DNA of 64,000 nt from Acidobacteriota bacterium (GCA_014584705.1 JACTMJ010000010.1:1-64000); one strand, 5' to 3'; counted from the stretch's first letter, positions 27,373 through 55,553 are shown. Numbers and translations: made by a program. Notes: generated from the sequence alone by a model not told the origin.

Positions 27373-29034
27373 CTAGTCATGGATTTCGTGCGAAAGTCCT
27401 TGAGGTGTGCTGGCGCGGCAAAGCACCAGTAGGCCGTTCTTGATTAGCCGACACACGTGCGAGACCAGCAGTAGCGGAGGCAGATCTGGACGCACCAGCC
27501 GTTCGACGATTTCGCCAACTTTGAGAGTGCCAGCCTGTACACATTGCTCAACGATTTGCTCATCGACTTCTGGGTAAAACGTCGGATCGGGCCTAAGGAA
27601 GAGACCGTTCCGCCGCAGCAGATCCATCAGACGACGGTAGTCTCGGCTGACTGTGACGTGGTCCTGGACCGAGATCGCATCCGTTGCGTAGTGCCGAAAC
27701 ACTGCGCTGTAGTCATACACCGCAGGATAGCTTAGATCGTCGGCAGACTGCATAGCAGCTGCGGCTTCCCGCAACTGTTCGTGCCATAGCTCTTCGTAGC
27801 GCCGCAGAACGCTCGGCCAGGCGAACTCCGACAGCGCCCGACGGCGGGCCGCTTCACCGTACTGCTTACGAAGGTCCGGCTTATTTGCCAGCACCCACAT
27901 CGCATGACTCAGCGCGTCCAAATCCAGGCACACGCGCTGTGTATAGTGATACTCACAGGCGAACAGCGAACTGATCGCGCTCAGTTCCAAGCCATCCCCG
28001 CAAATGTAAGTTGGGACGAGCCAGCCCTCGCGGGCATGCCGTACGAGGTGACGATAACCATCCCAGTCCGAGGCAATGACCGGCAAACTGGACATCATCG
28101 CCTCCACAACCGATATGCCGAATGTCTCCTCAATCGTATCACTGACGGCGATAAACACGTCTGAGGCACTTAAAAGCATGCGTTTTTGTTCAACCGTGAT
28201 ATCCGGCATCACGCTGACGGTTCGTGGAGATCCGAACTGACTGGCAAAGTCTAGTAACTCTGTCGCAAGGTGATGGCGGGTGTCGTCTCCGGCGACGATC
28301 AGGCGGCTGCCATCAGGAAGGCCGGGCGTCTCAATGAATATTCGGATAAGCGGGTGAAAATCGACCTTATTCGTTCGCGATAGTCGCCCGAGGAACAGAA
28401 AGACGATGTCGTCCTCTGCTATACCGAGGTGACGGCGCGCCACACCTTTAAGTCCGAGATCACCAACCATTGCCGGATCCACCCCGAGCGGAATGACGGG
28501 ATAGCGAATTGTCGGCAACGGTGGTGTGGGTTGCGTAACTGCGGTCGACTTTGCATGCTCGCACATCAGATGCTCAAGGGTTTGGCGCGCGCTAGGCGTA
28601 GTGCAGATCAGCGCGTCGAAGGCAAACAACCTTGATGAGCCAAACGAAACGCGCGGGTAAATCGTACTGAGGGTATGTGTGATGCCACAGATGGGCCAAT
28701 CGGGGTGTTTGCGTGCCAATCGGAACGAGGCATACTGCTGGAATAAGATGGAACTAGTGAAGAGCACCAAAGGACCACATTCATCTAGACGGTGCAGTGA
28801 AGATAGAGAAATTGGCTTGAGCCGGTCGGAATCGCGGTAGCATTCGGCGATGTCCGGGGGCGTGTCGGACTTGCGTACGTAGTAATAACCGTCGAACGTC
28901 CCGTGCGAAAGAAGAGCCTGCAGAAAACCGCTATCATTTACTGCCTCTCCGATTACGGAGTATCGAGCAGGCTCCTTCGATTTCAGGCGCTCGGCTGGGA
29001 AGGGAATGCGGTCTAGCAGAAGATGGGCCGACAT
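27373..29034 (-). CDS. Glycosyltransferase (GT4-like) with a C-terminal winged-helix-like extension
   Basis: The 553-residue protein starts at 29034 (MSAHLLLDRIPFPAERLK) with GGAGG five bases upstream; an upstream TTG was rejected. The GT-B core shows VFLFLGRLSRTNKVDFH and the E-x7-E motif in EETFGISVVEAMMSSLPVIAS (about 305). Beyond the usual end of the fold (about residue 430) there are some 120 extra residues. They contain two helical segments ending EQCVQAGTLKVGEIVERL and SHVCRLIKNGLLVLC, which look like a winged helix. The function of the extension is unknown; protein-protein or peptide recognition is possible. Confidence 0.75.
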   Translation of the reverse strand: MSAHLLLDRIPFPAERLKSKEPARYSVIGEAVNDSGFLQALLSHGTFDGYYYVRKSDTPPDIAECYRDSDRLKPISLSSLHRLDECGPLVLFTSSILFQQYASFRLARKHPDWPICGITHTLSTIYPRVSFGSSRLFAFDALICTTPSARQTLEHLMCEHAKSTAVTQPTPPLPTIRYPVIPLGVDPAMVGDLGLKGVARRHLGIAEDDIVFLFLGRLSRTNKVDFHPLIRIFIETPGLPDGSRLIVAGDDTRHHLATELLDFASQFGSPRTVSVMPDITVEQKRMLLSASDVFIAVSDTIEETFGISVVEAMMSSLPVIASDWDGYRHLVRHAREGWLVPTYICGDGLELSAISSLFACEYHYTQRVCLDLDALSHAMWVLANKPDLRKQYGEAARRRALSEFAWPSVLRRYEELWHEQLREAAAAMQSADDLSYPAVYDYSAVFRHYATDAISVQDHVTVSRDYRRLMDLLRRNGLFLRPDPTFYPEVDEQIVEQCVQAGTLKVGEIVERLVRPDLPPLLLVSHVCRLIKNGLLVLCRASTPQGLSHEIHD

Positions 29035-29699
29035 GGACTCCTCCGGGGCGTTCAATCAAGTGTGCGAACGAATATCAGATTGACTCGTGCTAGATGTATA
29101 GTGCCAGATCTGGTCACTTGGTATCCAGTCCGACCTTGGTAACGCTCGAACCAACCGCGACGGCCCAGGCATGCGGCGTAATCGGAACTGCAGATCCGCA
29201 CACGATCCAGCTGACCGAAGGTCTTGAAGCGAACATTCGAGCAAGTTGTCGGTCCTCAGCACCGAGACAGCGATACCTGCAGAGTGACCAGCGGGCCGGA
29301 ACCAGGGACGCTCAGAGTCTCCCTCATCGAACTGTTATCATCTGGAATGTGATCGAACTCTTCATTGTGAGCGAGAAGGTCGGATGTCTTGTCTCGGACG
29401 AGCGCTAAAGTGAGGTCCAGCAGTGTCGCCGACGAGTTCCTTCTGATATCGAGCGGCACGCACCGAACAGCCGTAGAGAATAGAAACTTACGAGGCAGTG
29501 CAAGACGGGTTCCAATGTTCGCGCGCCCCCGGTGATACTCAGATATGCCAACCGTTCGCCGACCCGTGGAGTTGCATCTATGTAAGCGCATACCGTGCGA
29601 AAACATATACGAGAAGTGCCATCGAGCGTCAGCGCGGGATAAACCTACTAGTGTGACGTACCTGAAATAGATTGCAATAACAGCGTCCGATCCATTTCA
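29035..29699. other. Spacer, probably degenerate sequence
   Basis: About 665 bases upstream of the minus-strand glycosyltransferase. Open frames of about 100 codons exist on both strands, none showing a family, a good start or sustained coding bias. It abuts a decayed IS630-like element and may be IS-associated debris. Confidence 0.4.
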
Positions 29700-30699: not shown

Positions 30700-30948
30700 T
30701 ACGGCAAGAATGCCCGGTCTCCGCAAATTGGGCATGGCGCGCCGTCGCTGGTAAGCATGCGCTTGAGTCACCCTCGAGAACACACATCGAAGCGCGAAAG
30801 CCCAGTGTCGAACGGGTACGTTCCCTCGGATCTGCCAGCTGGCTGAGCCAAAGGGGTATTCTTGCCTAGTCGCCGAGCCAGGAAACGCTTATGACAACTC
30901 GCCGCAGAATCGTATAAGGTCTTCCATTGCGAACTATGTGCATTACTG

Positions 30949-32754
30949 TCAGGCATCACTACCCTGGGGCATCTCCGTCGGAAATTGGGTGCATTGTTGG
31001 CGTGCCTGAGAACTACAGATCGCCGCCTCGACAGCAAGTTGGTCGTCGTAAAGATGCGCGTACAGCCCGCCGTTCGTATACAGATCCACGTGGGAACCTT
31101 GTTCGACGATACGGCCTGCATCGAGAACGTAGATGCGGTCCACCCAGGTGATAACTGAAGGACGGTGTGAGACAAAGAGCAACGTTGTATTGGGTAATGA
31201 CTCGTTGATCCGCCGCAAGACAGTACGTTCCGAAGTGGGATCGAGTGCGGCCGTCGATTCATCAAGCACGAGCGCGTCCGGTCTTGATATGACAGCTCGG
31301 GCGATGGCGACGCGCTGCCTCTCACCACCCGACAATAGGCGGCCGCCGGGCCCGACGGCCTCGTGCCAACCGTTGGAATGCTTCGTTAGTACGCGGTCGA
31401 GGTCGGACACGTAAGCCGCCATTTCCAGTTCTTGGCGGTTGGAGTCGGGCTTGCCGAGGCGAACATTCTCCTTGATGTCTCCATCGAACAATACCGGATA
31501 CTGCGGAACGTAGACCAAATGGGAGCGGAGGCTCGAAAGAGCTATGGAGCGCACATCCTGGTTGTTGATATACACTGTACCGGCCTGGGGATCGTACTGA
31601 CGCACGAGCAGTTTCGCGGCTGTACTCTTGCCTGCGCCGTTGGGGCCGACGAAAGCAACGCGAGCACCACGTCCTATCACAAGATGGAATTGCGATAAGA
31701 CCGTTGTGTGCCGGTAGCCGAAGTAGACGTTATCGCAGCGCAACTCGGCGGCCCCCGAATTGGAGAGCAACGTAGCATCCGGGCCGCTGCTAATGGTAGG
31801 AACCGCCGCGAGCGCCCCCATTATGCTGCGAACGTTCGACCGGACGCGCTGAAAACGAGAGCTTAGTTCCATTGCACCGTAAAGCGGCTCGAACAATCGC
31901 ACAAGGTAGCTGTAGAAGGCGACCAGCGCGCCTGTGGACATGTGGCCATCGAGCACGGCGTTCCCCCCCATGGCGATCATAACCGTGATGCCGAACACCA
32001 CCATCAGGCTCGACAGGACACTGCAGTAGATCTCAGCCAATTTGCGTCGGTACTCGGCCGATGCGACCCGGGCGGATTTATCGTGCATGCGCCGTGCCAT
32101 TCTGGCTTCGCAGCAGAGTAATTGGATTTGGAGGTTGGCCTCGCTGAACTCGTGCAACGCGGATCCGAACTTTTTCTGTTCTTCGAGCACGTGCTCCGAG
32201 CGTCCGCGGAGTCGGCGCCGGAGGTGTTGATTAAGGAGTGCCGCTGCAGGCAGAATAGGAATGATCGCAAGTGTTAGCGTCCAATTGAGCAGCAGCATCG
32301 CTATGAATGCGGCGACAAATAGCACCGAGATCCGGGTGATTGACGGGAGCACCTCACAGCCGAAAAGCTCGGTTTCGTGCAATGCGTCATGCAGCAGATG
32401 CACTTTCTCACCCGCTGGAGTTGTCGTGTGATAGTCTGCGGACATTCGGTTCTGGTGATCCACAAGAAGCATTCGTACGTGCTCGACCAGTTTTTGGCTG
32501 CCCGTGAAGCTCCAGAGGTTGCTCACGGCATTCGAGACAGATCGGCCCTGATAACTAAAAAACATCCCCACTGCCGCGAGAAGCAGCCCACCCGTATCTT
32601 GCTGCGGCAGAACCGAATCGATCAGCCATTTCATAATCAGCGGGTCGAGGAGCGTCAACAGACTTCCGGCGATGATTGCAGCAACACTCACACCGTACCA
32701 CTCTAAATGAGGCCGCATCTGGTTGACCAGCCAGCGCAATTCGGCAGATATCAT
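30949..32754 (-). CDS. ABC exporter, fused transmembrane and ATPase domains (MsbA/lipid- or peptide-type)
   Basis: The 601-residue half-transporter has about six transmembrane helices in residues 1-315. An ATPase domain follows with Walker A GPNGAGKSTAAK (about 368), signature LLSGGERQRVAIARA (about 471), Walker B DALVLDEST (about 492) and an H-loop in LFVSHRPS. There is no N-terminal C39 peptidase domain, so it is not a leader-cleaving peptide exporter. The start ATG overlaps the end of the epimerase gene by four bases, so the two are translated together. The pair suggests export of a glycolipid or glycosylated product. Confidence 0.85.
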   Translation of the reverse strand: MISAELRWLVNQMRPHLEWYGVSVAAIIAGSLLTLLDPLIMKWLIDSVLPQQDTGGLLLAAVGMFFSYQGRSVSNAVSNLWSFTGSQKLVEHVRMLLVDHQNRMSADYHTTTPAGEKVHLLHDALHETELFGCEVLPSITRISVLFVAAFIAMLLLNWTLTLAIIPILPAAALLNQHLRRRLRGRSEHVLEEQKKFGSALHEFSEANLQIQLLCCEARMARRMHDKSARVASAEYRRKLAEIYCSVLSSLMVVFGITVMIAMGGNAVLDGHMSTGALVAFYSYLVRLFEPLYGAMELSSRFQRVRSNVRSIMGALAAVPTISSGPDATLLSNSGAAELRCDNVYFGYRHTTVLSQFHLVIGRGARVAFVGPNGAGKSTAAKLLVRQYDPQAGTVYINNQDVRSIALSSLRSHLVYVPQYPVLFDGDIKENVRLGKPDSNRQELEMAAYVSDLDRVLTKHSNGWHEAVGPGGRLLSGGERQRVAIARAVISRPDALVLDESTAALDPTSERTVLRRINESLPNTTLLFVSHRPSVITWVDRIYVLDAGRIVEQGSHVDLYTNGGLYAHLYDDQLAVEAAICSSQARQQCTQFPTEMPQGSDA

Positions 32755-33707
32755 TGGAATGTCCTTTGGCCTTTTAACCAGCCATAGAAGCGCGCAACTC
32801 CATCCTCAAAGGCAACCGCTGGCTGGTAGTGGAGAAGCGCCTGAGCCTTCGCTATACAGGCGCGCGTCACCTCTGGATCCGCCGGATTCGGAGGGATGTG
32901 GATGATGCCTATACGCTTTTGTGTCACCTCTTCAATCGTACGAATGACCGTCATCAGGGAGAGCGGTCTAGAGCTTCCTACGTTGATAATTTCAAAGCGC
33001 GCATTCAACTCCAGTGCGGCACACATCGCCTGGATCGCGTCGTCGACGTAAGTGTAATCCCGCGCGCTCTCACCGTTTCCGAAGACCTGGATCGGTTCAC
33101 CGCGCTCGATTCGCTCGGTGAACAATCGAATCGCAAGATCGGGACGTTGGCGCGGTCCAAAAACGCTGAATAGCCGCAGGCAGACTACCCCGAAGTCGTA
33201 AAGATGCGCATAAGTTTCACACAGGAGCTCGGCTGCGAGTTTGGTCGCAGCGTAAGGTGATAACGGATGTAATTCCCGATCATCCTCGCGGAACGGGATG
33301 CGTTGCGACGCTCCGTACACCGAACTCGATGAAGCGAAAACCATCCGTTCCACGCCGCTAAGTCGGCAAGCTTCAAGTACATGAAGCGTGCCAGCAACGT
33401 TTGTGCGCTCATATAGAATCGCTTGGCCGATCGAGCCCCGAACTCCAGCCATCGCGGCGAGATGAATAACCGCCTCAGGTTTGAATGCTCTGAATTCATC
33501 GAGCAGTGGTTCGAACGTGCGGATGTCGATCTTCGACACTCGCACGCCCCCGAGGGAGCAAACCGCGCCGAGATTCGCCTGTTTCTCGTCTAATGAATAG
33601 ACTTCGTCTAAGTTGTCGATTATCGAAAGGCTGTGCCCAGCACGCAATAACGATTCCGAAAGGTGCGACCCAATGAACCCTGCCCCGCCGGTCACAAGCA
33701 CTCGCAT
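32751..33707 (-). CDS. NAD-dependent sugar-nucleotide epimerase/dehydratase
   Basis: An extended SDR enzyme of 318 residues: RVLVTGGAGFIGSHLSESL (Rossmann motif GxxGxxG at 7-13), the catalytic SSVYG segment, and SPYAATKLAAELL with Tyr-x3-Lys (about 149-153). The C-terminal part has FGPRQRPDLAIRLFTERI and VFGNGESARDYTYVDD, as in UDP-glucuronate or UDP-glucose 4-epimerases. GGAG lies six bases before the ATG. It provides an activated sugar, matching the nearby glycosyltransferases, and its stop overlaps the ABC exporter start. Confidence 0.88.
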   Translation of the reverse strand: MRVLVTGGAGFIGSHLSESLLRAGHSLSIIDNLDEVYSLDEKQANLGAVCSLGGVRVSKIDIRTFEPLLDEFRAFKPEAVIHLAAMAGVRGSIGQAILYERTNVAGTLHVLEACRLSGVERMVFASSSSVYGASQRIPFREDDRELHPLSPYAATKLAAELLCETYAHLYDFGVVCLRLFSVFGPRQRPDLAIRLFTERIERGEPIQVFGNGESARDYTYVDDAIQAMCAALELNARFEIINVGSSRPLSLMTVIRTIEEVTQKRIGIIHIPPNPADPEVTRACIAKAQALLHYQPAVAFEDGVARFYGWLKGQRTFQ

Positions 33708-34470
33708 GCGTTCTCCAGGGTCGTGATCTCTGTGATGCGAACCTCCGACAACAGCAGTCCTCTTAGCACTACAATAGTGGACTCGGCAGCATCAACGAGA
33801 CGCTACTGTATCATTCACCCTTGACGAAGGCAATAGTGATGGCAAGTTCTGCGACGGCAAATACGGCCAAGTTACGCCTCGCCGGAACCGTTGTCGGCCA
33901 GTGCGAACGCAGTTGAAAACAGCCTGCTAAGCAGAGGGTGTTGTCGGACCCGTCGGGATCATTGTCGAAATGATAAGCAATATCCAAACGAGATTCGGTG
34001 GAGACGGTGCGTCGGCAACAGTAGTCGACCGGTTGCAGGACTGGCGCTTTGCTGACACCGCAGATTCGAGTGCGCTGGACTGTTGTGGAACTTGGCAACT
34101 TCAGCCATCTGGGCCGGAGCGCCGTGATGGCGGATGACGCCGTAACGCTCTCGGCACAGATGCGCGAGCAAGGCGAACGCTTCGGGACGCCTTGTGTCGC
34201 TGGGATTGGTAATGAAATGAGATAGCGCATATCTCGGCGGCGACAAGGCGCACGCGACGGACGAGCGAACAGAATGGCCCAGTTTGCCGAAGTCATACAC
34301 ACAGTCGAGCCGGTGGAACTGCTCGATACGCCTTCAGTGGCGAGTGCGGTGTGCAGAAGAATTCTTGATCAAATTGATTCCGAACACAGGCACGCCGCTT
34401 GGCCGCCATTCTGTTCGGCGCCTTCACAATTGCGCATTCTGATCAGCTACAATGTGAAGCAGAGGATCAG
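33708..34470. other. Divergent spacer with no supported gene
   Basis: About 760 bases between the minus-strand epimerase and the plus-strand lipoprotein. Minus-strand frames up to 163 codons are open but change in character along their length, lack a plausible start and match nothing I know. This may be a promoter region plus degenerate sequence. Confidence 0.4.
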
Positions 34471-35646: not shown

Positions 35647-35667
35647 GTTTTTTGACGAGAGGTCTCG

Positions 35668-36453
35668 GTGCCGATTCTGTACGTGACTTCATTTTCGCGA
35701 GATATCTATGAAGCCAGTGGTTCCCGGTTGCTTGATTCATTCCTGAAATCCCAAACGAAAGATTGCATGGCCGTCTTCTACGAGGACATACCTGCTGCTC
35801 TCATCCGGCAGAGCCACCAGAACCTGGCCTTGCATGATCTAGGGGCATCATTGATGCTCGCGCATTGGCTGAAGACTAACCGCGATGTCATCCCTCAGCG
35901 GCTTGGAGGCGATTGGAACGGGTGCGAATGCCTCCAGGCGGAAGCCCCGCGAGAGACGCACCGGATTGGGTGCCCGGGAATCTGGTATAACCGGAACGCA
36001 TCACGGTGGTTCCGCAAGGTCGTTGCCCTTTGGGAGGCTATACATATTGCCCCAAATGCAACCGTTATTTGGCTCGACGCAGACTGCGTCGTCAAACGTG
36101 CAATCGACGAGTACACCATCGAGTCAGTCTTCGACCGTGCCGCTGTGTTCTACCTGAAGGGCTCCCATCGAGAGATCCTCGATTCCGGTATCCTTGGCCT
36201 GCACTTGGGCCGCGGCGGACGCGAGTTTGTGGAGGCGACGCTCGCTAGGTACATATCGGGCGAGTTTCGCCAGTACCCCCGCTGGGATGACGGTTATCAG
36301 TTCCAGGTCACTCTATCGAACAGGCAGGATATCCCAAGCGTCGATCTCGCCGCCGATACTTGCGGCGGTGACGTGGTGCGAAACAGCGTGCTAGGGACGT
36401 ACTTCGAACACGACCGGGGCACGCACCGCGTAGTTCACAGATTGATGCAATGA
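35668..36453 (+). CDS. Probable nucleotide-sugar glycosyltransferase (GT-A fold, DxD)
   Basis: The 261-residue protein starts at a GTG (35668) with GAGAGG upstream. A GT-A-type DxD motif is seen in TVIWLDADCVV (about residue 132), preceded by helix-rich WYNRNASRWFRKVVALWEAI and followed by DSGILGLHLG and DDGYQFQVTL. This is the arrangement of GT8 or related small glycosyltransferases. No transmembrane segment is seen. It sits directly after the lipoprotein gene. Donor and acceptor are unknown. Confidence 0.62.
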   Translation: MPILYVTSFSRDIYEASGSRLLDSFLKSQTKDCMAVFYEDIPAALIRQSHQNLALHDLGASLMLAHWLKTNRDVIPQRLGGDWNGCECLQAEAPRETHRIGCPGIWYNRNASRWFRKVVALWEAIHIAPNATVIWLDADCVVKRAIDEYTIESVFDRAAVFYLKGSHREILDSGILGLHLGRGGREFVEATLARYISGEFRQYPRWDDGYQFQVTLSNRQDIPSVDLAADTCGGDVVRNSVLGTYFEHDRGTHRVVHRLMQ

Positions 36454-38156: not shown

Positions 38157-39122
38157 CTATCCGAGTTGCAGGATCTGTTGCCACGCTGCTGACACACTCT
38201 CTTTATGAGCGTCGGCATAATACTCTCGGGCTCTTGCTTGGCTCTTCGCGGCGATCAACCCGTACTCCTCGACCTGGTCGGGGAAAGACCGGACAATCTG
38301 CTCTATGCCCTTGGCTACGCCGATCAAATCCCCCCACTCAAACAGCATCTCGGGAGACAGAATCTCTTGGAGCGTGCCATTCCTAAACCCCATTACTATG
38401 CAGCCTGCCGACATCGCCTCTAGCACGATGCGCCCCAGCCCCTCTTCGGCACTTAAGAAGACAAAGAGAAGTGACTCCTGCAGGGTGATTGCAACTTCCC
38501 GCTCCGGCAAATCGACTAGCTCGAACCATTGCAGGTTCTTCAAATGCTCCTCGCCGCTCATCGCCCGTGCCGCAAGCATGTGATGCAGCGCCGCAACCGA
38601 CTTGGGCACCTTTGGCACATAGGCAATCCGTTTCTTCCGTCCGCAGAGTGGCTGAGGGCTAAAAAGGTCGCCGTCAATATGAGGTTTCACTATGAAGGTG
38701 GGGAGTCTGGGATAAGCGTATTCTAGATGGGCAGCATTGTGCCTGGACATGACCAGCGCCGCGATCACATCGGGGTGCCTGTACGGCGAAAGCTCCGTTC
38801 TCTGGCTCGTGATAGTGCTAAAGCCAGTCCAGATGCTTTTATTGAAGACCACTTTCTTCCTTCCCGGATACTGCAGAATCCGATCTCCGAGATCCTCGGG
38901 CAAAACCACGTAGTCGCGTTCAGGGTCAATAATTCGCAGGAATTCGTTTCGGCCTATGACCCTGGTTTCATGGTCGAACCAAGTCAATCGGTGCCCCGAC
39001 TGGTCGTGGAAGACGAAGGCATCGTATCCAAGTGCGTTCAACGCATCCACATGTCGATAGGTGTCCTTTTGGCCGCCTGAGGGCCGGTCTTCGAGGTAAC
39101 AATGAAAGAACATCGTAGGCAT
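38157..39122 (-). CDS. Glycosyltransferase at the end of the RiPP-like operon
   Basis: The 321-residue protein starts MPTMFFHCYLEDRPSGGQKD. The ATG at 39122 overlaps the stop of the upstream radical SAM gene (TGATG), so translation is coupled. A GT-B C-terminal half is seen, with FVFLSAEEGLGRIVLEAMSAG carrying a sugar-nucleotide E-x7-E motif, then GTLQEIL. The N-terminal half is short. This coupling is unusual and suggests it glycosylates the peptide product or a pathway partner. It is the last gene of the minus-strand set that begins with the precursor at 44838. Confidence 0.75.
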   Translation of the reverse strand: MPTMFFHCYLEDRPSGGQKDTYRHVDALNALGYDAFVFHDQSGHRLTWFDHETRVIGRNEFLRIIDPERDYVVLPEDLGDRILQYPGRKKVVFNKSIWTGFSTITSQRTELSPYRHPDVIAALVMSRHNAAHLEYAYPRLPTFIVKPHIDGDLFSPQPLCGRKKRIAYVPKVPKSVAALHHMLAARAMSGEEHLKNLQWFELVDLPEREVAITLQESLLFVFLSAEEGLGRIVLEAMSAGCIVMGFRNGTLQEILSPEMLFEWGDLIGVAKGIEQIVRSFPDQVEEYGLIAAKSQARAREYYADAHKESVSAAWQQILQLG

Positions 39123-40519
39123 CAAATGGTATCCAGCAGCTCTTCGTGTACCAACCGTCTATGATCCTGGCGAACGGGATTCTCTTCAGCATGCGGCCCT
39201 GTGATGCTGCCCTGATCGAAGAACTTGTCCTGGTCTTCCCATCTCCGCTTGTGGCTGCTTGGACGGTATCGCATTACCAAGTAGTCGCGAAACGTCCTCA
39301 AGTCCTCGGAGGACAAAGCGCTTGTACTTACCTCGTAGGCTGTATTGCCGCCAATGGTACCGTACGCACCTGTCACCTCACCATCGATGCCCGCTGGCCT
39401 AATGATAAGGTCGACCAGGCCGCCTTTCTCGATCGCGCTCCGGATCTGCGTACCCCTGAACGGCATGTAGACAGCACATTGGAAATCATCAAAGCCTGCA
39501 TTTCTAATAAACTCCTCGGTCTGGGCCAGCGTCTCCCAGGTCTCACCGGGGAGCCCAAGCAGTATGAACGCTTTAATGATCAAACCTTGCTTTTTCGCGT
39601 ACTGTACTGTTTTATAGTTTTGCTCCACAGTGCAGCGTTTCCTGACATTGTCAAGAATCTTCTGACTCCCAGATTCGGCTCCAAAGGCAACCTCGCAGCA
39701 GCCTGTGTCTGCGAGCAGTCTAGCCATTTCATCACCCCATTTAGTAAAGTAACGGGCCTGCGCGTTGCACCGGTATACAAGGTCTAGCCGATGCATCTCC
39801 TCACATATCGGTCGTATTTTCGACAGTGAGATAGCAAAGAGGTCATCGAAGATATAAACTCCCCCGTATCCGAGGCGGTAAATATCGTTGAGTTCATCCT
39901 TGATGTTGCCCAAACTGCTCCACCGGACCGAGGTCATCGCGTCCTCGCAAAATGAGCACTGCTCGGGACACCCACGCGCAGTCATCATGGTTGTGGCCGA
40001 CCGGCCAGCCAAGTGGTAGCTGTACCTTCGGAGGACCGAGACGGCATTAGCACTTTTCCGATCAGGCCTTGGTTGACTTAGGACTTCTGTGCGCGTCAGC
40101 ACGTCGGAGACTACCCGGCCGGTAGCCTTGCCAGCCACAATTCTGGTCAAAGACTTCTCCCCATCGAACGGAACGAGGTAGTCAAATACGCGCAACTGCA
40201 GCATCTCGTCACAATAGTGCTTGACGTGTGGGCCACCTGCGATCACGATCTTGTCGGGCCACCGCTCCTTGATTAATCCGGCAAGGGTCAATGCTTCAAA
40301 CCGTTGCGGAGTTGCTATGCTGATGCCAATGGCGTCAAACGGTTCCACTGATGCCAGTGTCAGGTCATAGTCATCATCACCAACTACAACGTGAACTCCA
40401 GGCAAGTGTTGGTTGACGTAGCTCTTTAGGTAAAGGTTTGCAAGCGGGCAGTACACTTTGCTGTCGTCCAGGAAGGGACTTCGGCAGCTAAGCAACAAAA
40501 GGTTCTTAATGGATTGCAT
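39122..40519 (-). CDS. Cobalamin-binding-domain radical SAM enzyme
   Basis: The start MQSIKNLLLLSCRSPFLDDS at 40519 has GAGAGG five to six bases upstream; a longer frame was rejected. Residues 25-130 form the Rossmann-like B12-binding domain (FDAIGISIATPQRFEALTLA, IVIAGGPHVKHYCDEM) without the DxHxxG base-off ligand motif. The radical SAM core starts with GCPEQCSFC (Cys184, 188, 191) and includes GVYIFDDLF and GAESGSQKIL. Such enzymes methylate unactivated carbons or rearrange peptides and natural products, and in peptide clusters they C-methylate residues. At 465 residues it is of normal size. It is co-oriented with the precursor, SPASM maturase and permease. Confidence 0.85.
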   Translation of the reverse strand: MQSIKNLLLLSCRSPFLDDSKVYCPLANLYLKSYVNQHLPGVHVVVGDDDYDLTLASVEPFDAIGISIATPQRFEALTLAGLIKERWPDKIVIAGGPHVKHYCDEMLQLRVFDYLVPFDGEKSLTRIVAGKATGRVVSDVLTRTEVLSQPRPDRKSANAVSVLRRYSYHLAGRSATTMMTARGCPEQCSFCEDAMTSVRWSSLGNIKDELNDIYRLGYGGVYIFDDLFAISLSKIRPICEEMHRLDLVYRCNAQARYFTKWGDEMARLLADTGCCEVAFGAESGSQKILDNVRKRCTVEQNYKTVQYAKKQGLIIKAFILLGLPGETWETLAQTEEFIRNAGFDDFQCAVYMPFRGTQIRSAIEKGGLVDLIIRPAGIDGEVTGAYGTIGGNTAYEVSTSALSSEDLRTFRDYLVMRYRPSSHKRRWEDQDKFFDQGSITGPHAEENPVRQDHRRLVHEELLDTI

Positions 40520-40652
40520 GCTCACCTCTCTCTGTGTTGGCTGTCGTTCCAACTCGATCCGGAAAGCTGAGGAGCGCCTCGCAGCAGCGACTCTCTACTC
40601 TGCTAGGCGGGATCTTGCCGTAAGGCTTCGATGGCCCGTTCTGCCTCATCGA

Positions 40653-43082
40653 TTACTCGCGGCGCAGTGCGCTCATGGGATTGATCCTGGAAGCTCGACG
40701 CGCCGGGACATAGCAGGCCAGTCCCACCACAGTCGCGACGAGGAGGATGTCGGCCACGAGGATGGCGGGATTCAAGGGCGTCACTTCGTACAGGAGGCTT
40801 GATGTTACGCGGTCCAGAGCGAAAGCGCCAAACAGTCCGATTGCTAGGCCGACGCTCGCTAGCTTTGCACCCTGCCGCAGGATTAGGCCGTTCAGGTCCG
40901 CGGCAGTCGCGCCCAGCGCCAGGCGGACTGCCATATCGCGAGTACGGAGCGAAACCGAAAACGAGATGACGCCGTACATCCCCGTGGCGGCCAATAACAG
41001 CGCAACCGCGGCAATTGCACCGAGAACTTCAGCGCTGTAACGATTGGCCACCACCGTCCGCGACAGAAGATCATCCATCCACTCGAGCGAAGATGGCGGC
41101 AGCCCCTTATCCACGCTCCAGATAGCACTCTTGACGTCCGCAGGAAGTCCGGGAGTCCTGGTTCGACTGCGAATGACGAACGTCATTTCACTCACGTTCG
41201 GGAATTGGAAGATCGGGAGGGCAACTTCTGGTGCGGCCTCTTCGGTCAACCGCATCTGCCGCACGTCATCAACGACACCAACCACCTGCATCCAAGGCGC
41301 GCCGGGAATTAGGCGATCGGGAAGCTGAACGCTCGCTCCCACGGGATCTGCGTTGGGCCAGTACCGCTTAGCCATGGTGACATTGATCACGCACACTGGT
41401 TGGCTCGCTCGGTTATCGTGGTCGCTGAAGACGCGACCTTTCTTGATCGCAATCCCCATTGTATGGAAATAGTCGGAGGTCACGAAGCGATACTGGACAG
41501 TGCTCGTCGACGGTACCGTAAGCCCCCGAATGGCGAAAGACACGTTGTGCGCCTGCCCGACGATGGGCAGACTGTTCGTGGCGCCGACTGCTTCGACTCC
41601 AGGGATCGCATTGATATGCTCAATGAGGCTGGCGAGGATGGGAGCCTGCGCGAAGGGCTCGGAATATCGCTCCACGGGCAACTTGATGCTGATTGTGGCA
41701 AGGTTCTCGAGGCGGAAGCCCGGATTGATCTGCTGAATGTTGAAGTAACTATTCACTAGAAGGCTTCCGCTTAACACCAGAATGAACGTGAGCGCCGTTT
41801 GAGCGATAACAAGAAAACCAAGGAGTCCGCGAAAGCTCGACCCAGCGGCCGTCGACCGTCCACTTTCCTTAAGAACGCTGCCGAGATCGACACGGTTGGA
41901 CCTGATCGCAGGCACAATGCTGCACAACAATACCGCCACCGCAGTCACGCATAAGCAGGCCAACAGAGTTGTGCCATCGACGTGGATCTCGGTCAAGCGG
42001 GGCAGGTCTATGGGGCTTCGTGCTACTAGACGGACGCCCCAAATCGAAAACAAGATCCCCAAGACACCGCCCACGAAAGCGATTACCGCACCCTCCGATA
42101 CGAGTTGCTGGATGATGCGCAACTGGTCTGCCCCCAAGCTCGCCCGAATCGCAACCTCCTTGCGGCGAGCCTCCGTGTTCGCCAGTTGAAGGCTCGCGAT
42201 GTTTCCGCAAACGATCAACAACAAGACCCCAGAGGCCGCCCAGAGGATCTCCAGGCTCTGGCGAACCTTGTAAACGAACCGCTCGCGAAGAGGCGTGATG
42301 ACGGTACCCGTGAACCCCCTATTTGTGTTAGGGTACGACTGCTCCATGCTGCGAGCCATTCCATCCATCTCTGCCCGGGCCTGCTCGATTGACACACCAT
42401 GTCGCAGCTTGGCGATCACGCCGACGGCTCGTCGGTCTCGGGTTTGGCGTGGGAGATTGACAAGTGTCCAAATGTCTGTGTTTGTGAAGAAATTGAAGCC
42501 CGCCGGAAGTATTCCCACAATCGTGAACGTTCCACCGTCGAGTGCCACGGAGGTTCCGACTACGTTTGGATTTGCGCCGAAGGCTCGGGACCAGAGACCG
42601 TGCGAGAGAATGGCCACTTGGTCGCCGCGCGTTTCCTCGTCGCCGCTGAAAGTCCTCCCCCACAGAGGCTGCACCCCAAGCACCGAGAAGAAAGAAGCCG
42701 TTGCTACTGTGCGACGCACCATCATCGCCTCGTCGCGGGCCAGCAAGGCCGGATGCGCGGATGCGAACGCTGCGATGTCCTCGAATACTCCGTTTTGTCG
42801 TTTCCAATCCCAGAATTCAGCCGGCGAAATCGGAAATGAGACATTCGACTCTGCCCGCTTAGCGCCGACGAGCACCAGTCTGTCGGAGTCGCTAAACGGC
42901 AGCGGACGCAGCAACACAGCGTTTACCAAGCTGAAAGCAGTAGTGTTCAGGCCGATGCCGACAGCAAGCAGCAGGCAAGCTAGAACCGAGAAACGCGGAT
43001 TCCGAAGCACTGACCTTATGCCATGCCGGATGTCTTCGGCCCAATGCAGCATGCTCATCCCATTGTCGCAGCGCGCAGCCAT
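40653..43082 (-). CDS. ADOP-type FtsX/MacB-like permease (no ATPase domain)
   Basis: The 809-residue protein has the duplicated layout of acidobacterial orphan permeases: a short cytoplasmic N-terminus (WAEDIRHGIRSVLRNPRFS), TM1 (about 32-55), a MacB periplasmic core domain, a first FtsX block of three TM helices (about 285-410, with EARRKEVAIRASLGADQLRI), and TM (about 425-445). A second periplasmic domain and a second FtsX block follow (about 690-800, with RTRDMAVRLALGATAADLNG). No nucleotide-binding domain is present. It lies 20 bases after the SPASM radical SAM gene, so it is likely the exporter or immunity component, using an ATPase encoded elsewhere. Confidence 0.9.
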   Translation of the reverse strand: MAARCDNGMSMLHWAEDIRHGIRSVLRNPRFSVLACLLLAVGIGLNTTAFSLVNAVLLRPLPFSDSDRLVLVGAKRAESNVSFPISPAEFWDWKRQNGVFEDIAAFASAHPALLARDEAMMVRRTVATASFFSVLGVQPLWGRTFSGDEETRGDQVAILSHGLWSRAFGANPNVVGTSVALDGGTFTIVGILPAGFNFFTNTDIWTLVNLPRQTRDRRAVGVIAKLRHGVSIEQARAEMDGMARSMEQSYPNTNRGFTGTVITPLRERFVYKVRQSLEILWAASGVLLLIVCGNIASLQLANTEARRKEVAIRASLGADQLRIIQQLVSEGAVIAFVGGVLGILFSIWGVRLVARSPIDLPRLTEIHVDGTTLLACLCVTAVAVLLCSIVPAIRSNRVDLGSVLKESGRSTAAGSSFRGLLGFLVIAQTALTFILVLSGSLLVNSYFNIQQINPGFRLENLATISIKLPVERYSEPFAQAPILASLIEHINAIPGVEAVGATNSLPIVGQAHNVSFAIRGLTVPSTSTVQYRFVTSDYFHTMGIAIKKGRVFSDHDNRASQPVCVINVTMAKRYWPNADPVGASVQLPDRLIPGAPWMQVVGVVDDVRQMRLTEEAAPEVALPIFQFPNVSEMTFVIRSRTRTPGLPADVKSAIWSVDKGLPPSSLEWMDDLLSRTVVANRYSAEVLGAIAAVALLLAATGMYGVISFSVSLRTRDMAVRLALGATAADLNGLILRQGAKLASVGLAIGLFGAFALDRVTSSLLYEVTPLNPAILVADILLVATVVGLACYVPARRASRINPMSALRRE

Positions 43083-43101
43083 TCATAGGTGCTGAGGGAG
43101 A

Positions 43102-44544
43102 TCACCCTTCCGTCTGACCAGCTATCGCACATGATTGAAGATCTCCAGGTGTATGCTCAACCGTCTTCCCGCTGTTCCCGTTCGACTTGACGTAAAGGCT
43201 ATTCCAGTATCGGCGCAAATTGTCGGATTCCGCAATCGAAGTTGCTATCCGTTGGAACGCGTTCATCGCTAGTCGGCACTGAGTATCATATACGCCGTGC
43301 AGCGAGCCAGCGTGCGCCAGGCAGGTGCCACCGCAAAGCGGTAGCCAAATGCATTCACCGCACATGCCGGTCTTGACTTCACGCGAGCGGATCATCTGAG
43401 CTTTCTCGCTCACCAGGGCGCGCTGCAGAGATGTTGAAGTGCCTATCTGCACCAATCCCAAGTTGCCGAGCGGCCCTTTGCGATCAATACAGTCGCACGC
43501 TTCAATCGAACCGTCGGAAGAAACGCTCAACAAGTCGCGTGCCGCCCCACAATTCTGTCTCATGCACATATTGCTGCCGGGTCCGAGGATAAAGTTGTGC
43601 AGGTAGTCTGTCAGGGGCTTAACCTGAAACCCCGCGAATTCGCCTCCTTCCACCGCGTCGAATAGTCGGTTCCACGAGCTAACCACTCGTTCGATCGAGA
43701 ACCCAAATCGGTCGCACTGTCCCCGGGCAGCACCTATCGCCTGGAACAGCGACCAGTCCCAGGTTGTGAAACCCAGATCGCGGAAGTGCCGCGCGATCAT
43801 GAGCAACTGGTCTTGGTTATTCGCCGTAACCGTCGTGAGAATGCCGCAATTCCGCACGAACTCAGGAAATTCCCGCAGCGCACGTTCGAAATCCCCGTAT
43901 GTACCATCGCCATCCGCGAGCACGCGAAAACGATCATTTATCGACGCCGGTCCGTCAATAGAGATGCCCCAGTTCAGACGATGCTCGGTGGAGAAGTCCA
44001 CCATGTCTTGGTTGATCCGGCTGGCGTTCGTCTGCCCCGCGAAGAGCACCTTTTTGCCCAAACTCGACGCCAGTTGTTCGGTTTCCAACACAAGCTTCTT
44101 GATGAATCCAAAAAAGAGCGTAGGCTCGCCGCCATGAAGGATGATAGCTAGGTCCGGCTTGTCAGGCCGCTCGGTTCGCCGCTCGACAATGCGGAGCGCT
44201 TCAGCGACGGCGCTGAGAGCGATTTCGTACGGCAGGTGAACCATCTTGTCATCAGGCTCCATATCGTAGCAATACTGACATCGATAATTGCAGACTTTTG
44301 TAATCTTCAAAATCAGTGTGGTTAAACTTCTTGGCGCTTCGTACGCCGCCCCACCTACGCCGGCTTCGAACAACCGCTCGGACAGTGCCTCTCGCCTCCC
44401 CCGTAGGTCTTCGGGAACCAGATGCTCTGGCATGGGGATCAGCTTCAGCATCGGCGAAACCGTAGAAGGCACCATTGCCCACTTGCCGTTTTCGCGATCC
44501 ATGATCAACGTCTTACGGCCTAAATCCAGGATGGAGAACTTCAT
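43102..44544 (-). CDS. Radical SAM/SPASM peptide maturase
   Basis: The 480-residue protein (start 44544, MKFSILDLGRKTLIMDRENG, with GGGAG seven bases upstream) carries the 4Fe-4S/SAM motif CNYRCQYC (Cys85, 89, 92) and HGGEP (137-141). The C-terminal SPASM domain has nine cysteines (327, 332, 350, 352, 395, 398, 404, 408, 423), including CGECIWLPLCGGTC, enough for two extra clusters. Residues 1-75 before the core may be a leader-recognition domain. Such enzymes form C-C or C-S crosslinks or epimerise residues in ribosomal peptides. The 49-residue Trp-rich peptide encoded just upstream is the obvious substrate. A longer start (44631) is possible. Confidence 0.88.
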   Translation of the reverse strand: MKFSILDLGRKTLIMDRENGKWAMVPSTVSPMLKLIPMPEHLVPEDLRGRREALSERLFEAGVGGAAYEAPRSLTTLILKITKVCNYRCQYCYDMEPDDKMVHLPYEIALSAVAEALRIVERRTERPDKPDLAIILHGGEPTLFFGFIKKLVLETEQLASSLGKKVLFAGQTNASRINQDMVDFSTEHRLNWGISIDGPASINDRFRVLADGDGTYGDFERALREFPEFVRNCGILTTVTANNQDQLLMIARHFRDLGFTTWDWSLFQAIGAARGQCDRFGFSIERVVSSWNRLFDAVEGGEFAGFQVKPLTDYLHNFILGPGSNMCMRQNCGAARDLLSVSSDGSIEACDCIDRKGPLGNLGLVQIGTSTSLQRALVSEKAQMIRSREVKTGMCGECIWLPLCGGTCLAHAGSLHGVYDTQCRLAMNAFQRIATSIAESDNLRRYWNSLYVKSNGNSGKTVEHTPGDLQSCAIAGQTEG

Positions 44545-44648
44545 TCCAGACTCCCACGCGCTGCTGCGCCTACGTCGATCCCGAACAAAGAATGGCGTGA
44601 ATGGTCCAGCGCCCGCTTCAATGATCTCCATCCATCAGCGAGTGCCAT
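44541..44648 (-). CDS. Possible 35-residue peptide between precursor and maturase
   Basis: A short open frame starts MALADGWRSLKRALDHSRH and ends with TGA overlapping the maturase ATG at 44544 by four bases (ATGA). Translational coupling could make it real. However, it has only a distant GAGG and overlaps a possible N-terminal extension of the maturase in another frame. No family is recognised. Confidence 0.25.
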   Translation of the reverse strand: MALADGWRSLKRALDHSRHSLFGIDVGAAARGSLE

Positions 44649-44688
44649 GGAACACCCACGCCTCTGGAATTACTGGTGTGGGTTTACG

Positions 44689-44838
44689 TCAATACCGAAT
44701 CCACGATTCGGCCCAATCCGTGCTCGGCGCAATCTCCGACTTTTCCCAGCTTTCGTGGCTGTCGAGGGTGTAGCTGTCGTCGACAGCCCGGGCTGCAGCG
44801 AACATCTGGATGAGGTATTCAGTTTCGGTCGCGTACAT
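44689..44838 (-). CDS. Putative RiPP precursor peptide, Trp-rich core
   Basis: A 49-residue open frame: start MYATETEYLIQMFAAARAV, then DDSYTLDSHE, SWEKSEIAP and STDWAESWIRY to the TGA stop. AAAGGAG (44848-44854) sits nine bases before the ATG at 44838 and is one of the best ribosome binding sites in the window. An ATG nine bases further up touches the Shine-Dalgarno and was rejected. The N-terminal half is helical and hydrophobic like a leader. The C-terminal half is charged and holds Trp31, Trp42 and Trp46 in W-x-x settings (W-E-K, W-A-E, W-I-R) and ends in Tyr. Position, size and strong translation signals point to the substrate of the SPASM enzyme. I recognise no known precursor family. 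Confidence 0.65.
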   Translation of the reverse strand: MYATETEYLIQMFAAARAVDDSYTLDSHESWEKSEIAPSTDWAESWIRY

Positions 44839-44867
44839 ACTAAACATCTCCTTTCATGAGATACGGT

Positions 44868-44896
44868 ATGGTAACGTGCGCGAAGTTCTTTGTCCA
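44868..44896 (-). promoter_or_regulatory. Candidate promoter of the precursor-maturase operon
   Basis: Read on the minus strand: TGGACA (44896-44891), 17 bases, TACCAT (44873-44868), about 30 bases before the precursor start. The leader would be roughly 20 bases and carry the AAAGGAG. Confidence 0.5.
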
Positions 44897-45006: not shown

Positions 45007-45456
45007 ATGTCTGGATCCCTGCTCAAGTTCGAACAGCAGCACACCGCGTTGTTAGCGCAGACTTCCAGGTTAGCGGACTTCCGTGCGAATTTAATCACCG
45101 TAGCCGGAGGACGTTGCGGTACGCTGGGGCGCCACTGTCACCTTCCCGCTGACTCTGGCAACGCTCTCCACCCTCGATTGACTTACAAGCTCAATGAGAA
45201 GACTGTGACTGAGAATTTCCCGTCTCCTGCTGCCTAGCACAAGGCCGGACGCGAGATCGCTGAGTTCCGCCGCTTTCAGCAGTTCCCCAAGGAACTCGCT
45301 GCGGTGGACGAACCGAATCTGCCGCCTGCGTCCGGTGGAGGAAGCCCTCTCAGCGGCAGAAAATTTGCGGAGATCCTCCGCCAGGAAGTTGCGCGCGAAG
45401 TAGCTGCGACGCTCCGGGCCGTCTTCGCCGGCACGCAAGGAACGACGCTTTGATCT
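45007..45456 (+). pseudogene. Remnant of a second ISKra4-like/DUF6788-like transposase N-terminus
   Basis: The plus strand reads TYKLNEKTVTENFPSPAA, a TAG (45235-45237), then KAGREIAEFRRFQQFPKELA and AEILRQEVAREVAATLRAVF before TGA. The piece ...KTVTE..SPAA..KA.RE.AEF.RFQ is shared with the remnant at 36.9 kb, so both derive from related elements. Only the N-terminal part is left and it has an internal stop. Confidence 0.6.
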
Positions 45457-45556
45457 GGAGGCCATCCAGATGCCCCCCGACAGGCGATGCATCAGGCTCG
45501 TGCATCGATAATTGGGAATGGCGGATTCCGGCAGGACATTTTCAGGCGACTAAGGA

Positions 45557-46741
45557 TCGCGCCGCAGCGGTTGACGGCCTGCTCTTGAGACTGCATGACT
45601 CCACGGAGTTCAGCGTCTACGGGGAATCGCCGCAGGAGCTCGGCGCTGCGCAAGTGATTCCGAAAGGGAGGCACGGAACAGTATGCGGCCCGCGGGATTC
45701 TGATGCACTCCAGCCTGGCGGTTACCATCGAAGGCCGGGCGTTGGGGCTCTGCGCGACCAAATTCTGGACACTCGATCGCTTCAAAGGGACCATCGCGTT
45801 GAAACGAACCTCAATCCCACACGGGTTCCTATTGGAGAGAAGGAGTGCGTTCGCTGGCTTGAGAATTTGAGAACCTCTACGAAGCTTCTGGGCGAAGCCA
45901 GCAACTGTTTACATATATGGGACCGGGAAAGTGACATCTACGAGATATGTTGCAATGCCCAGGACGAGGGCACGAATTTTCTCATTCGCACTTGCGTGGA
46001 CCGTCTTTCCGTCGATGTCAAGCAAACGATCTCGGCAGCAATGAAGGACGCGAAAGCAAAGGCCATTCACCACGTCGAAGTCCGGGATGGCAAGGAACGC
46101 GTGTCGTGAGCCAGTCTGGAACTCAGATATCAGCGCTTGGACTTCTTCCCTCCTGTCGGCAATCAGAGGAAATATCATTCCCTCACACTGACCGTGATCC
46201 ACGCGCGCGAACGAAGCGCTCCATCAGGAAGACCTCCGATCGATTGGAGATTGATCACTAACCTGCCGGTACACTCGCGAGCGGAGGCCCTGGAGAAGCT
46301 CTCCTGGTACGCGATGCGGCGGAAGATGGAGACTTTCCACGAGATTCTGAGATCTGGCTGCCGGGCCGAGGAGACGAAGTTGGGGGCATCCGAACGGATC
46401 ATGAACCTGATGGCGGTGTTCTGCTTTCTCAGCTGGCGGATCTTCTGGATGACGAGATGAACCGTATTGCTCCGAGCTCCCCACCGTCAATCGCGCTCAC
46501 GGAGATACTGGCCAGTGTGCTGAACCGATTGATCCCGGATCGCACGGATGAACAGGGCGCGAACAAGCAGCGCCAATCCGGATCCCTCGCGAGCTACCTG
46601 ATCAAGATCGGACGCCTCGGAGGCTACTTGGCCAGAGCAAAGGATCCTCTACAAGGGGATATGGTGATGTCGCGAGGCATGTCGCGGCTCAATGGCATCG
46701 AACTGGGCGTCCTTTTCGGTGCCGGACTTGTGGGTAATTGA
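45557..46741 (+). pseudogene. Decayed IS4-family (Tn5-like) transposase
   Basis: Three consecutive frames together resemble an IS4-family DDE transposase: LLLRLHDSTEFSVYGESP (first Asp region), CLHIWDRESDIYE (second Asp), and SWYAMRRKMETFHEILRSGC, the YREK region, where the final Lys is replaced by Arg. The C-terminus is YLIKIGRLGGYLARAKDP followed by MVMSRGMSRLNGIELG. At least two frameshifts and an internal stop (about 46108) break it. The region to the left contains another IS remnant. Terminal repeats were not resolved. Confidence 0.8.
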
Positions 46742-46933: not shown

Positions 46934-49900
46934 TCAAGAGGTTCGCGAGCAACAGCACCAATGACCTGAAGGCTCAGACTCGGACAGTAGCTCATAGGCC
47001 AGCATGTTGTGTCTGCAGAGATCCCTTCCAAACAAGCAGAGATGGTCGTAGGCCCAGAGTTTAACGACGTGCACGCGTGCGCGCCGCGCGGCCAGGTAGT
47101 CCCGCTGCCACGGCCAGCCGGCATTGAAGTGGCCCATGAGGTAGCGGCAGTCGGTTCGTGGCCAGTTGAGGATCCCAAACGGGTAGGCGGCCATCGCGCG
47201 GACTTTGTCGAGGTTCCGTTCGAGGCCGGCGTACTGGAAGCCTTCGATCATGAACGTGTCGAAGCCGCTGGTCGCCTTCGATGTCCATTCCGTGGGCAGG
47301 TTGATGTAGCGGTTCAGTTGGCGTGCATCGGGATCGTTCACATCGAGCGGCCACAGGAGTTCGAACTTAGCGTTCGGGTGGCTCGCGAGGACGTTGGCTA
47401 GGATGGCGGCAACATGGTCGCGTAAGGTCTGACGCAGGAATTTGGCGTCGACGCTGCCGTTCACCGAAGGGTCGTCGTTCGGCGTTAGGAAGAGGTGGAG
47501 TGGGCGGTCGTGTGCGGACTGGAAGGCTGCCGTCGTATAGGCATCGTAGAACGCCATGCCGGACGTGTTGGGGAAGAACCACCAGAGAACTTCGCCGAAC
47601 TGGAGCCGGGCTTCCAGGCCGGCGGATTCCATGAGTTCTGCGACCTCGGCGTAGCCTTGCTGGATGTAGTTCCGGAACGGTGGCGCGAAGGCGCAGTGGG
47701 AGGAGAGTTTATTCGCGAAGCCGGTGGCGGTTTCGACGGGGTTGCCATCGGGGTAGCGCTGGACCCAGACTGCATCCGGCGGATTGTCGGGTGGCAGGAC
47801 CAGTTCCTGGCTGAAGGCGGAGACGCAAGTCATGCCGTGAGCGGCGAGTTCGGCGAAGTAATCTGCATGCCAGTCACGGGCGGCGCGGTTGAGCACCGGC
47901 ACGGCAATATCATCAATCACCCATTCGCCCATGACACCGTTCTGGAGGGAGCCGAATACCGGCGCGGTGCCGCCCACCGAGTTGTGGGATTCCGCGAACG
48001 TGAATGCGTAGGCTGGCGCCGGCGAGCGGGTGGTGATGGTCAGCGTTCCCCCGCTGGCCTGGGCCCACACGCCGACGAATGTCGCATTGATGTAGCAGGC
48101 GAAGTGGCGGGCAATGGTTTCGGGAGTGTCCGCTGGGAAGACTGACTTGCCGATGGTCGTGCCACCGATAGTCAGGAATGCGGCATCGCCATCGGCCCAG
48201 GTGCCACCGAAGGTGACTGCCATCGATGGGAACACACCACCCACGCGCTTGCGCTGATTCCACCAGAAGACAGAGAGGTAGTGATCGATCTCGCCGATGA
48301 GCCCCAGCTTGCGGATCGCCCAGACGAGCCGTTGCGGAGAGAGCTTGTAGGTGTGGTCGGTACCATAGTCGCAGGCGACACCCACATCGGAGCGCAGTTC
48401 TGGCGCTTCCGGCACGTCGGCCGGGACCGCGCATTCAAGGAAATCGAAGTAGTAGAAGAAGCCCTGGCTTGCCGGATTCTTCGTGCCGGTGAGACGGATC
48501 TCAACGGAGTGCTGTCCTGCGGGCACGTTGGCAAATACTTTACGGCGGACCTGGCGGGCCTTCGCGGTTTCCTCGTAGCAATCAACCTGCACGGGTACGC
48601 CGCCATCGAGGCGCACTTCGACGATGCCGCAATCAAAGTCCAGCCGAGTACCCAGGTAGATGTCGTGCGGTACGCCGCAATGGGTTTCGACAATCGCCCG
48701 GGCCACGGAGGAAGCGGCACGGCGTGCCCGGCCTTCACTGAAGAACTGTGGCGGGGACCACTCCCAGAAGCCGTCATACACCACCCAGGAATCGTTCTCC
48801 TCGATCCGCACGGACTGGGGTCCCGCCACCTTGAGCGTGCGCGTCCCCATGGGATCGGAAACAGTCCAGTTGGTGAAGGTCGCCTGCCATTCCTCGGCGA
48901 CATATTCCATGCCGTTGGCCGATCGTGGCGCGAAGGTCATCCAGACCTTCTGCAGGCTGGTGGCGCCGTGGGCGGAGAAGTCCACGGACACGCGCCAGAT
49001 AGCATCGGAGGAGCCACCTGGAAGAGCGCACACTTCGGGGGTGAAGTAGAGATTGCCGTTCTTGTGCAGTTCGTAGAGGCAGATCATGTTTCCGTCCTCG
49101 CCTTGGCGGGCAGCCGTAACGGTGAGTACGTTGCCGGAAGCTGATGCCTCAAGCGGGATGAGCACGCCGAGGGAATTCCAATCCGTTCCGTTGATCTGGT
49201 CACGGATCGCGCGGCAAATGGTCGTGTCCTTGATTTGGTGGAGGGTTTCGGCACCGCTGCCAGAGGCGGAGACTGTGAAGCTCGCGCCGGTATCGAGCTT
49301 CCGTACCAACCGGACGATGTGCGCCTGGCTGCCGATGGAGGCCTCTACGTTGGGATCGGGTGTGCCATTCAAGACGCTAGCGAGGGCGTTGGCGACGGAC
49401 GCACTGCCATCGCCCGGCTGCTCGGTGTAGGCATAGACAGTGCCCGCTACGGTAACCGAATGCGCGGTACCGGCACCCGCAGCGTAGAACGGGAATTCGG
49501 CCTCGAGCTTGCCCGGAACGATGTAATCGAAGGCGAGATTCTGATACCAGAGCGTCACCCGGTCGTAGGGCTGCATGCCGGCATCGATGAGGGTGAACGA
49601 ACCGCTGGCCGGGGTGTAGTCGCCGCCCACCTGGGTTGCGTGCGCGAACAGCGGGATCTGGATGAGCGTGCCATCCGTGCGCAGGCAGTTGAGGTAGGGC
49701 CAATCGATGGTGGCGTATTTCGGGGAGTCGATGGGCTGGAGATTCTCATAGTGAAGATCGAAGGTGAGGACGAGTCCCGAGAAATCGGGATCCGGCAGGT
49801 AGGAGAAGCGAGGATGGCCGTAGAAATCATCCCGGTCCCAGAGGATGAGGACACAGAAGTCGGCCGCGTCGCGGAAGACGCCCGATACCTTGAAGCTGGA

Positions 49901-49996: not shown

Positions 49997-50000
49997 CGCG

Positions 50001-53315: not shown

Positions 53316-53318
53316 GGA

Positions 53319-55146: not shown

Positions 55147-55155
55147 GGGAGTTGC

Positions 55156-55539: not shown

Positions 55540-55553
55540 AGGGGGCGTGTGGT

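Follow-up and report, generated by a model that had tools for sequence, protein, structure and literature searches.

Within the window, i.e., the whole 64,000-nucleotide stretch of DNA that was analysed, a short run of genes raises the question of whether a small Trp-rich peptide, two radical SAM enzymes, a permease and a glycosyltransferase jointly make one modified peptide, as the initial annotation proposed in describing them as a RiPP biosynthetic operon. All five genes are indeed present on the minus strand in the order given there (38157-44838). The features discussed below are as follows.

44689..44838, minus strand: 49-aa candidate RiPP precursor, MYATETEYLIQMFAAARAVDDSYTLDSHESWEKSEIAPSTDWAESWIRY, with no Cys; its C-terminal end, WAESWIRY, is similar to WAQWTRAC, the core seen in orthologous precursors
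44848..44854, minus strand: ribosome binding site AAAGGAG of the peptide gene, in the upstream sequence
43102..44544, minus strand: radical SAM/SPASM RiPP maturase, 480 aa, with probable start at Met30 (the annotated ORF reaches 44631, 509 aa)
40653..43082, minus strand: ADOP family duplicated permease (MacB_PCD + FtsX, twice), matching TIGR03434
39122..40519, minus strand: B12-binding-domain radical SAM protein, CxxxCxxC at 184/188/191, in no curated subfamily
38157..39122, minus strand: GT4-like glycosyltransferase with a TGATG overlap with the B12 gene; a 53% orthologue lies behind the B12 orthologue in genome G437
27373..29055, minus strand: second GT4 glycosyltransferase, with a C-terminal extension; a 31% homologue lies beside the B12-glycosyltransferase pair in G437
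30949..32754, minus strand: ABC exporter (membrane and ATPase domains, no peptidase domain), possibly the exporter of the island; putative member
32751..33707, minus strand: NAD-dependent sugar epimerase/dehydratase overlapping the ABC exporter; putative member

Several details of the original description were confirmed. The peptide gene has the excellent ribosome binding site ascribed to it, with AAAGGAG nine bases ahead of the ATG, the ADOP gene follows closely behind the SPASM gene (the measured gap is 19 bases, 20 having been claimed), and the glycosyltransferase gene overlaps the B12 gene as TGATG at 39122. The SPASM, ADOP, B12, and glycosyltransferase genes are all intact and keep every catalytic cysteine. 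Two other details had to be revised. The SPASM gene had been taken to start at 44631, but a start at Met30 (44544, 480 aa) is more probable, because homology with most orthologues begins at about residue 31, residues 1-29 have a pLDDT under 50 in the predicted structure, and GGGAG, a good ribosome site, precedes Met30. This start places the gene 144 bases past the stop codon of the peptide. The promoter claimed ahead of the peptide (TGGACA-17-TACCAT, 44896-44868) is not above chance, with 2 matches found and 3.3 expected in shuffles, and it was dropped as evidence for an operon. The ADOP and B12 radical SAM genes are separated by a gap of 133 bases (40520-40652); an alternative 47-aa ORF in this gap (40506-40649) was rejected, as it overlaps the B12 start and has a weak ribosome site. 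No peptidase gene was seen at the locus.

The SPASM enzyme carries the radical SAM motif CxxxCxxC at C114/118/121 and, as claimed, nine cysteines in its C-terminal SPASM domain (Cys 356, 361, 379, 381, 424, 427, 433, 437, and 452). The SPASM pattern (GxxxxC at 374-379, CxxC-x5-C-xxx-C at 424-437, and C452) is invariant in seven aligned members. No curated model of NCBIfam or Pfam claims either of the two radical SAM enzymes, and the best named profile for the SPASM enzyme is that of the PapB ranthipeptide maturase (NF047865), at 149.9 bits versus a cut-off of 340. Among solved structures, the closest are those of CteB (thioether), anSME, TigE, and ChlB. Taken from residue 29 on, the structural model aligns over 404 residues with full-length CteB (Z 25.0, 5.8 A) and also with TigE (Z 21.1), both of them RiPP maturases. 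Residues 32-89 (in the 509-aa numbering) are modelled as three strands plus helices with a confidence of about 60-87, and since this RRE-like fold lies where CteB has its RRE, the enzyme likely carries a leader-binding domain of its own.

Phylogenetically, the enzyme falls inside a clade of eight members that are 40-50% identical to it, the next SPASM proteins reaching at most 31% (tree support 97/91; 0/500 shuffles). The hosts are spread over Myxococcota, Pseudomonadota, Desulfobacterales, Nitrospirota, and the window's own class. The member from this class (genome G411) is 50% identical to the window enzyme, and six further members (40-48%) were retrieved from a scan of 84,980 species genomes, namely from Archangium violaceum, a Hydrogenophaga MAG, two more proteobacterial MAGs, a Desulfobacterales MAG, and a Nitrospirae MAG. 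Because the scan required exact short motifs, more members may exist. No orthologue was found in the 60 nearest genomes (best match 31%), and the samples of Myxococcota (193) and of the class (399) yielded no members beyond Archangium and G411. Viral contigs held no orthologue of either radical SAM enzyme; 28 viral loci had generic radical SAM similarity (23-35%), none of them for the B12 enzyme. Among the plasmid matches listed, identity was at most about 27%. In the Nitrospirae MAG, the SPASM gene (L066, 2600-3952) is split by a frameshift, which is either real or a sequencing error. A second, separate SPASM clade (support 97/100), about 27-31% identical to the window enzyme, was observed in the window's phylum at loci L032, L033, L034, L037, L041, L003, L004, L006, L050, and L057.

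Upstream of the maturase gene, all seven orthologous loci have a precursor-like ORF of 77-138 aa, and this conserved peptide argues strongly, at the genomic level, that precursor and maturase form a pair. The two genes overlap by 4 bases in Archangium and are 11-64 bases apart in five loci, while in the Desulfobacterales MAG the precursor lies 643 bases from the maturase, with a transposase-like ORF between them (94 aa, L065 865-1149). Most of these precursors have in common a leader with an MS[DE]xE-like stretch. Their core, GVWAQW[TS]RAC in its full form, keeps W-[ST]-R-[AS]-C in all seven, with W-x-R-x-C invariant, and the four precursors that were checked have no Pfam or NCBIfam name. From these sequence comparisons we conclude with good confidence that the SPASM enzyme, already suspected to be a RiPP-type maturase, is one of an uncatalogued family; as far as enzyme and precursor are concerned, the existence of a new radical SAM/SPASM RiPP family is well supported.

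The next gene downstream is also conserved in the seven orthologous loci and encodes a protein of about 300 aa with an acyltransferase fold. Its model (pLDDT 82) matched PatA and LpxM in a fold search (E 5e-6 and 1e-5), and one member scored just under the cut-off of the Pfam lipid A acyltransferase model (21.3 versus 22.3 bits); a profile search of solved structures with this family gave no match. Acyl transfer is only a putative activity of these proteins because the usual catalytic His is seemingly missing, the canonical HX4D His appearing, as read by eye from the alignment, to be swapped for Thr or Ile (TxxxxD). We found no described rSAM RiPP with such a PatA- or LpxM-like partner. The gene is absent from the window locus, and the window genome has only a weak match to it (30.8 bits). 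A RiPP-type B12 C-methyltransferase gene of TIGR03975 comes next in Archangium (L061; 374 bits versus a cut-off of 282; two overlapping ORFs), and a gene of similar C-methyltransferase type, by sequence, is part of the operon in the Nitrospirae locus. An ADOP gene occurs in no orthologous SPASM locus.

How does the 49-aa peptide of the window compare with these precursors? It is shorter (49 versus 77-138 aa), also lacks their Cys, and ends in DWAESWIRY where the relatives have VWAQWTRAC. An hmmsearch profile of the seven orthologous precursors did not report it even at E 50, and 60 related genomes contained no homologue. The joint conservation of precursor and maturase that had been suggested as a test was therefore only partly borne out: related maturases do keep a peptide partner; the 49-aa peptide, for its part, shows no detectable homology to these partners and has the Trp-x-Arg core alone in common with them. 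Among shuffles of the window peptide, W-A-x(1,2)-W-x-R occurred in 0.16% and W-x(2,3)-W-x-R in 1.0%, both patterns having been picked after sight of the sequence. Nevertheless, a chance ORF is unlikely given the near-ideal ribosome site and the precursor-like ORF in the same position at every orthologous locus. The rest of the 167-kb contig holds no family-type precursor, and on the basis of this, of its position, and of its WAESWIRY end we take the peptide to be the probable substrate of the SPASM enzyme.

W-x-R is the sole core element common to all eight peptides, and XncB, also a SPASM enzyme, makes a bond from Trp C6 to Arg C-beta, i to i+2 (PMC11002830), so that a Trp-Arg three-residue cyclophane is the most economical guess for the product. 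The RRE-like domain would hold the N-terminal part of the precursor, and SAM radical chemistry on the Trp-rich end would most likely crosslink Trp to the Arg two residues on, at W46-I-R48 in the window and at W-[ST]-R in the relatives. We regard as possible, though not as the favoured outcome, that the enzyme instead links the Cys of W-[ST]-R-[AS]-C in a thioether, epimerises a residue, forms a cyclopropane, or changes the C-terminal Tyr in a mycofactocin-like manner. Its chemistry is unreadable from the nearest profile (PapB, 150 versus 340 bits) or from the nearest structures, i.e., CteB, anSME, TigE, and ChlB, and every one of the seven orthologous cores contains the Cys. The window peptide, however, is without any Cys, which excludes a thioether for this peptide although not for its orthologues, and W-x-R alone is common to the eight cores. 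Likewise, the mycofactocin precursor ends in Tyr, as does the window peptide, but Tyr is non-terminal in the orthologues and the best 25 of 51 NCBIfam matches of the SPASM enzyme include no mycofactocin model.

The permease matches the ADOP model TIGR03434 above its curated cut-off (798 versus 622.3 bits, residues 15-809), and with only two full ADOP genes in the 4.88 Mb genome and a start 19 bases past the SPASM gene it is unlikely to be there by accident; the reading of it as mere background was dropped in view of these two copies. As worded, the claim that all five genes form one system was not borne out, since the B12 enzyme and the glycosyltransferase recur without the SPASM enzyme and the B12 enzyme is absent from the other SPASM genomes. 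In a genome of the window's phylum (G437, locus L068), orthologues of the B12 enzyme (66-67% identity) and of the glycosyltransferase (53%) overlap in a similar way. This pair is adjoined by a homologue (31%) of the window glycosyltransferase at 27373-29055, which is thus probably a third member of the module. Its neighbourhood includes an asparagine synthase and a sigma-54 regulator, and the phylum sample gave no match to the SPASM enzyme in G437. Conversely, none of the seven other SPASM genomes has a window-type B12 enzyme (best match 132 versus 1020 bits). A single orthologue of the B12 enzyme was found among 396 genomes of the phylum, 193 of the class of G437, and 230 of the order, and the SPASM and B12-glycosyltransferase modules have so far been found together only in the window. 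The B12 enzyme scored 47.4 bits with TIGR03975 (cut-off 281.85), and the best curated subfamily, of PhpK type, gave 112 versus 600 bits. Judged by this distribution, the B12 enzyme and the glycosyltransferase are a module separate from the SPASM system. The G437 region (L068, 7453-17798), which contains the B12 enzyme, two glycosyltransferases, the asparagine synthase, and a 466-aa protein that matched no family, may be a biosynthetic cluster of its own.

Once crosslinked, the peptide would probably be methylated by the downstream B12 enzyme and glycosylated by the glycosyltransferases, and its export would fall to ADOP or to the ABC exporter close by. A B12 step alongside crosslinking has a precedent in the family, given the C-methyltransferase-type genes at L061 and L066. 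Counted against such a pathway are a peptide unlike those of the family, the missing acyltransferase gene, the recurrence of the B12 enzyme and glycosyltransferase elsewhere without SPASM, the gap of 133 bases, a B12 enzyme outside TIGR03975, and the lack of any visible peptidase gene. The rival possibility is that two neighbouring systems are present, the peptide and the SPASM enzyme (perhaps with ADOP) making a crosslinked RiPP while the B12 enzyme and the glycosyltransferases make or trim another product, e.g., a surface glycan or a small glycosylated metabolite. The gene set of G437, the seven SPASM genomes, and the 133-base gap all point in this direction, as do the further glycosyltransferases, the sugar epimerase, and the ABC exporter of the island. 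On the other hand, the B12 and glycosyltransferase genes lie on the same strand directly downstream, and the pairing of SPASM members with a B12 radical SAM gene at L061 and L066 makes a B12 step on the peptide plausible. Taken by itself, the arrangement in two systems strikes us as a lesser but serious possibility. That the five window genes yield one crosslinked, methylated, and glycosylated peptide is in our view a sensible hypothesis, with about the same likelihood as a pair of adjacent systems, and we give the whole pathway (precursor and maturase, Trp-x-Arg crosslink, then methylation, glycosylation, and export on one peptide) roughly even chances.

The locus lies in a stretch of lower GC content (22-46 kb; 54-59% versus mostly 58-64% outside). 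This stretch (22000-46000) is bordered at one end by rpoB/rpoC with ribosomal genes and at the opposite end by large ORFs of high GC content. It includes an IS630 element (24853-25938), a remnant of IS630 (29829-30699), and a fragment of an IS4 transposase (45450-46109), and it looks like an acquired island, in keeping with a mobile patchwork. More glycosyltransferase genes or candidates, the ABC exporter, and the sugar epimerase are found at 25977-36453; one product (35668-36453, 261 aa) has no family match and reads like a glycosyltransferase (WLDADC). The very large minus-strand ORFs at 46934-60230 (1020, 1104, and 1085 aa) are possibly, as a guess, a phage-tail-like or contractile system; the 1020-aa and 1104-aa ORFs and a 363-aa ORF (53579-54670) had no NCBIfam match. 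That the locus is a decayed or repurposed copy, whose true precursor and acyltransferase gene were lost and whose 49-aa ORF is no substrate, is improbable: IS fragments flank the region, the family profile misses the window peptide, and neither a family-type precursor on the contig nor more than the 30.8-bit acyltransferase match in the genome was found, but the four enzyme and permease genes are intact with all catalytic cysteines, and the peptide at the precursor position has its near-perfect ribosome site and W-x-R end.

Several known systems resemble parts of the locus. PapB-type maturases and CteB provide the best named profile and the best-matching full-length structure, and they have an N-terminal RRE, as the window enzyme seems to; they differ in the profile score (150 versus 340 bits) and in that the window peptide is free of Cys. 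The triceptide SPASM enzymes (XncB, OscB/GrrM, YhhB, and MscB) likewise have a small adjacent precursor with a conserved aromatic-x-x motif. However, their precursors are of a different family, the W-x-R crosslink of the window is a proposal read from a sequence motif, and the window enzyme scores far under their models (YhhB 87/445, XyeB 69/450, and GrrM 60/310 bits, score/cut-off; FxsB is far under too). Darobactin and dynobactin systems resemble the window in pairing a SPASM enzyme with a Trp-rich (in the window, candidate) precursor and in having a gene for a MacB-like permease close by, which in darobactin systems is DarB. The window enzyme nevertheless reaches only 114 of 450 bits for DynA and 57.5 of 650 for DarE, and the window ADOP is not DarB (19 versus 700 bits) and has no adjoining ABC ATPase partner. 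The TIGR03975 C-methyltransferases are B12 radical SAM enzymes of peptide loci alike, with true members at L061 and, by sequence, at L066, but the window B12 enzyme differs from them (47 versus 282 bits). In the mycofactocin locus a SPASM enzyme, a small peptide, and a glycosyltransferase occur together. The window peptide has no mycofactocin model match, and neither the SPASM enzyme (best 25 of 51) nor the glycosyltransferase has one among the matches listed. The initial statement that no described system has the full set agrees with our results, the five genes together being undescribed in anything we found; a claim limited to the pairing of SPASM enzyme and glycosyltransferase would pass over mycofactocin. 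Our literature searches found nothing on Trp-Arg cyclophane RiPPs, lipid A acyltransferase RiPPs, or Archangium RiPPs.

At its broadest, and only tentatively, the SPASM family might define a new RiPP class with a Trp-x-Arg crosslink, in which most members have the acyltransferase-fold partner (possible lipidation) and some a B12 methyltransferase, the lineage of the window having gained a different B12 enzyme and glycosyltransferases to make a crosslinked, C-methylated, glycosylated peptide; in this complete form we hold it to be rather unlikely. The analysis brings to light a small, phylogenetically scattered SPASM family with a conserved precursor motif, unnamed in NCBIfam, Pfam, and the literature searched. 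Testable loci are now listed for it (Archangium, Hydrogenophaga, and others), and W-x-R provides a rule for finding more. If the extra genes of the window do act on the same peptide, crosslinking, B12 methylation, and glycosylation would be combined there in a new way.
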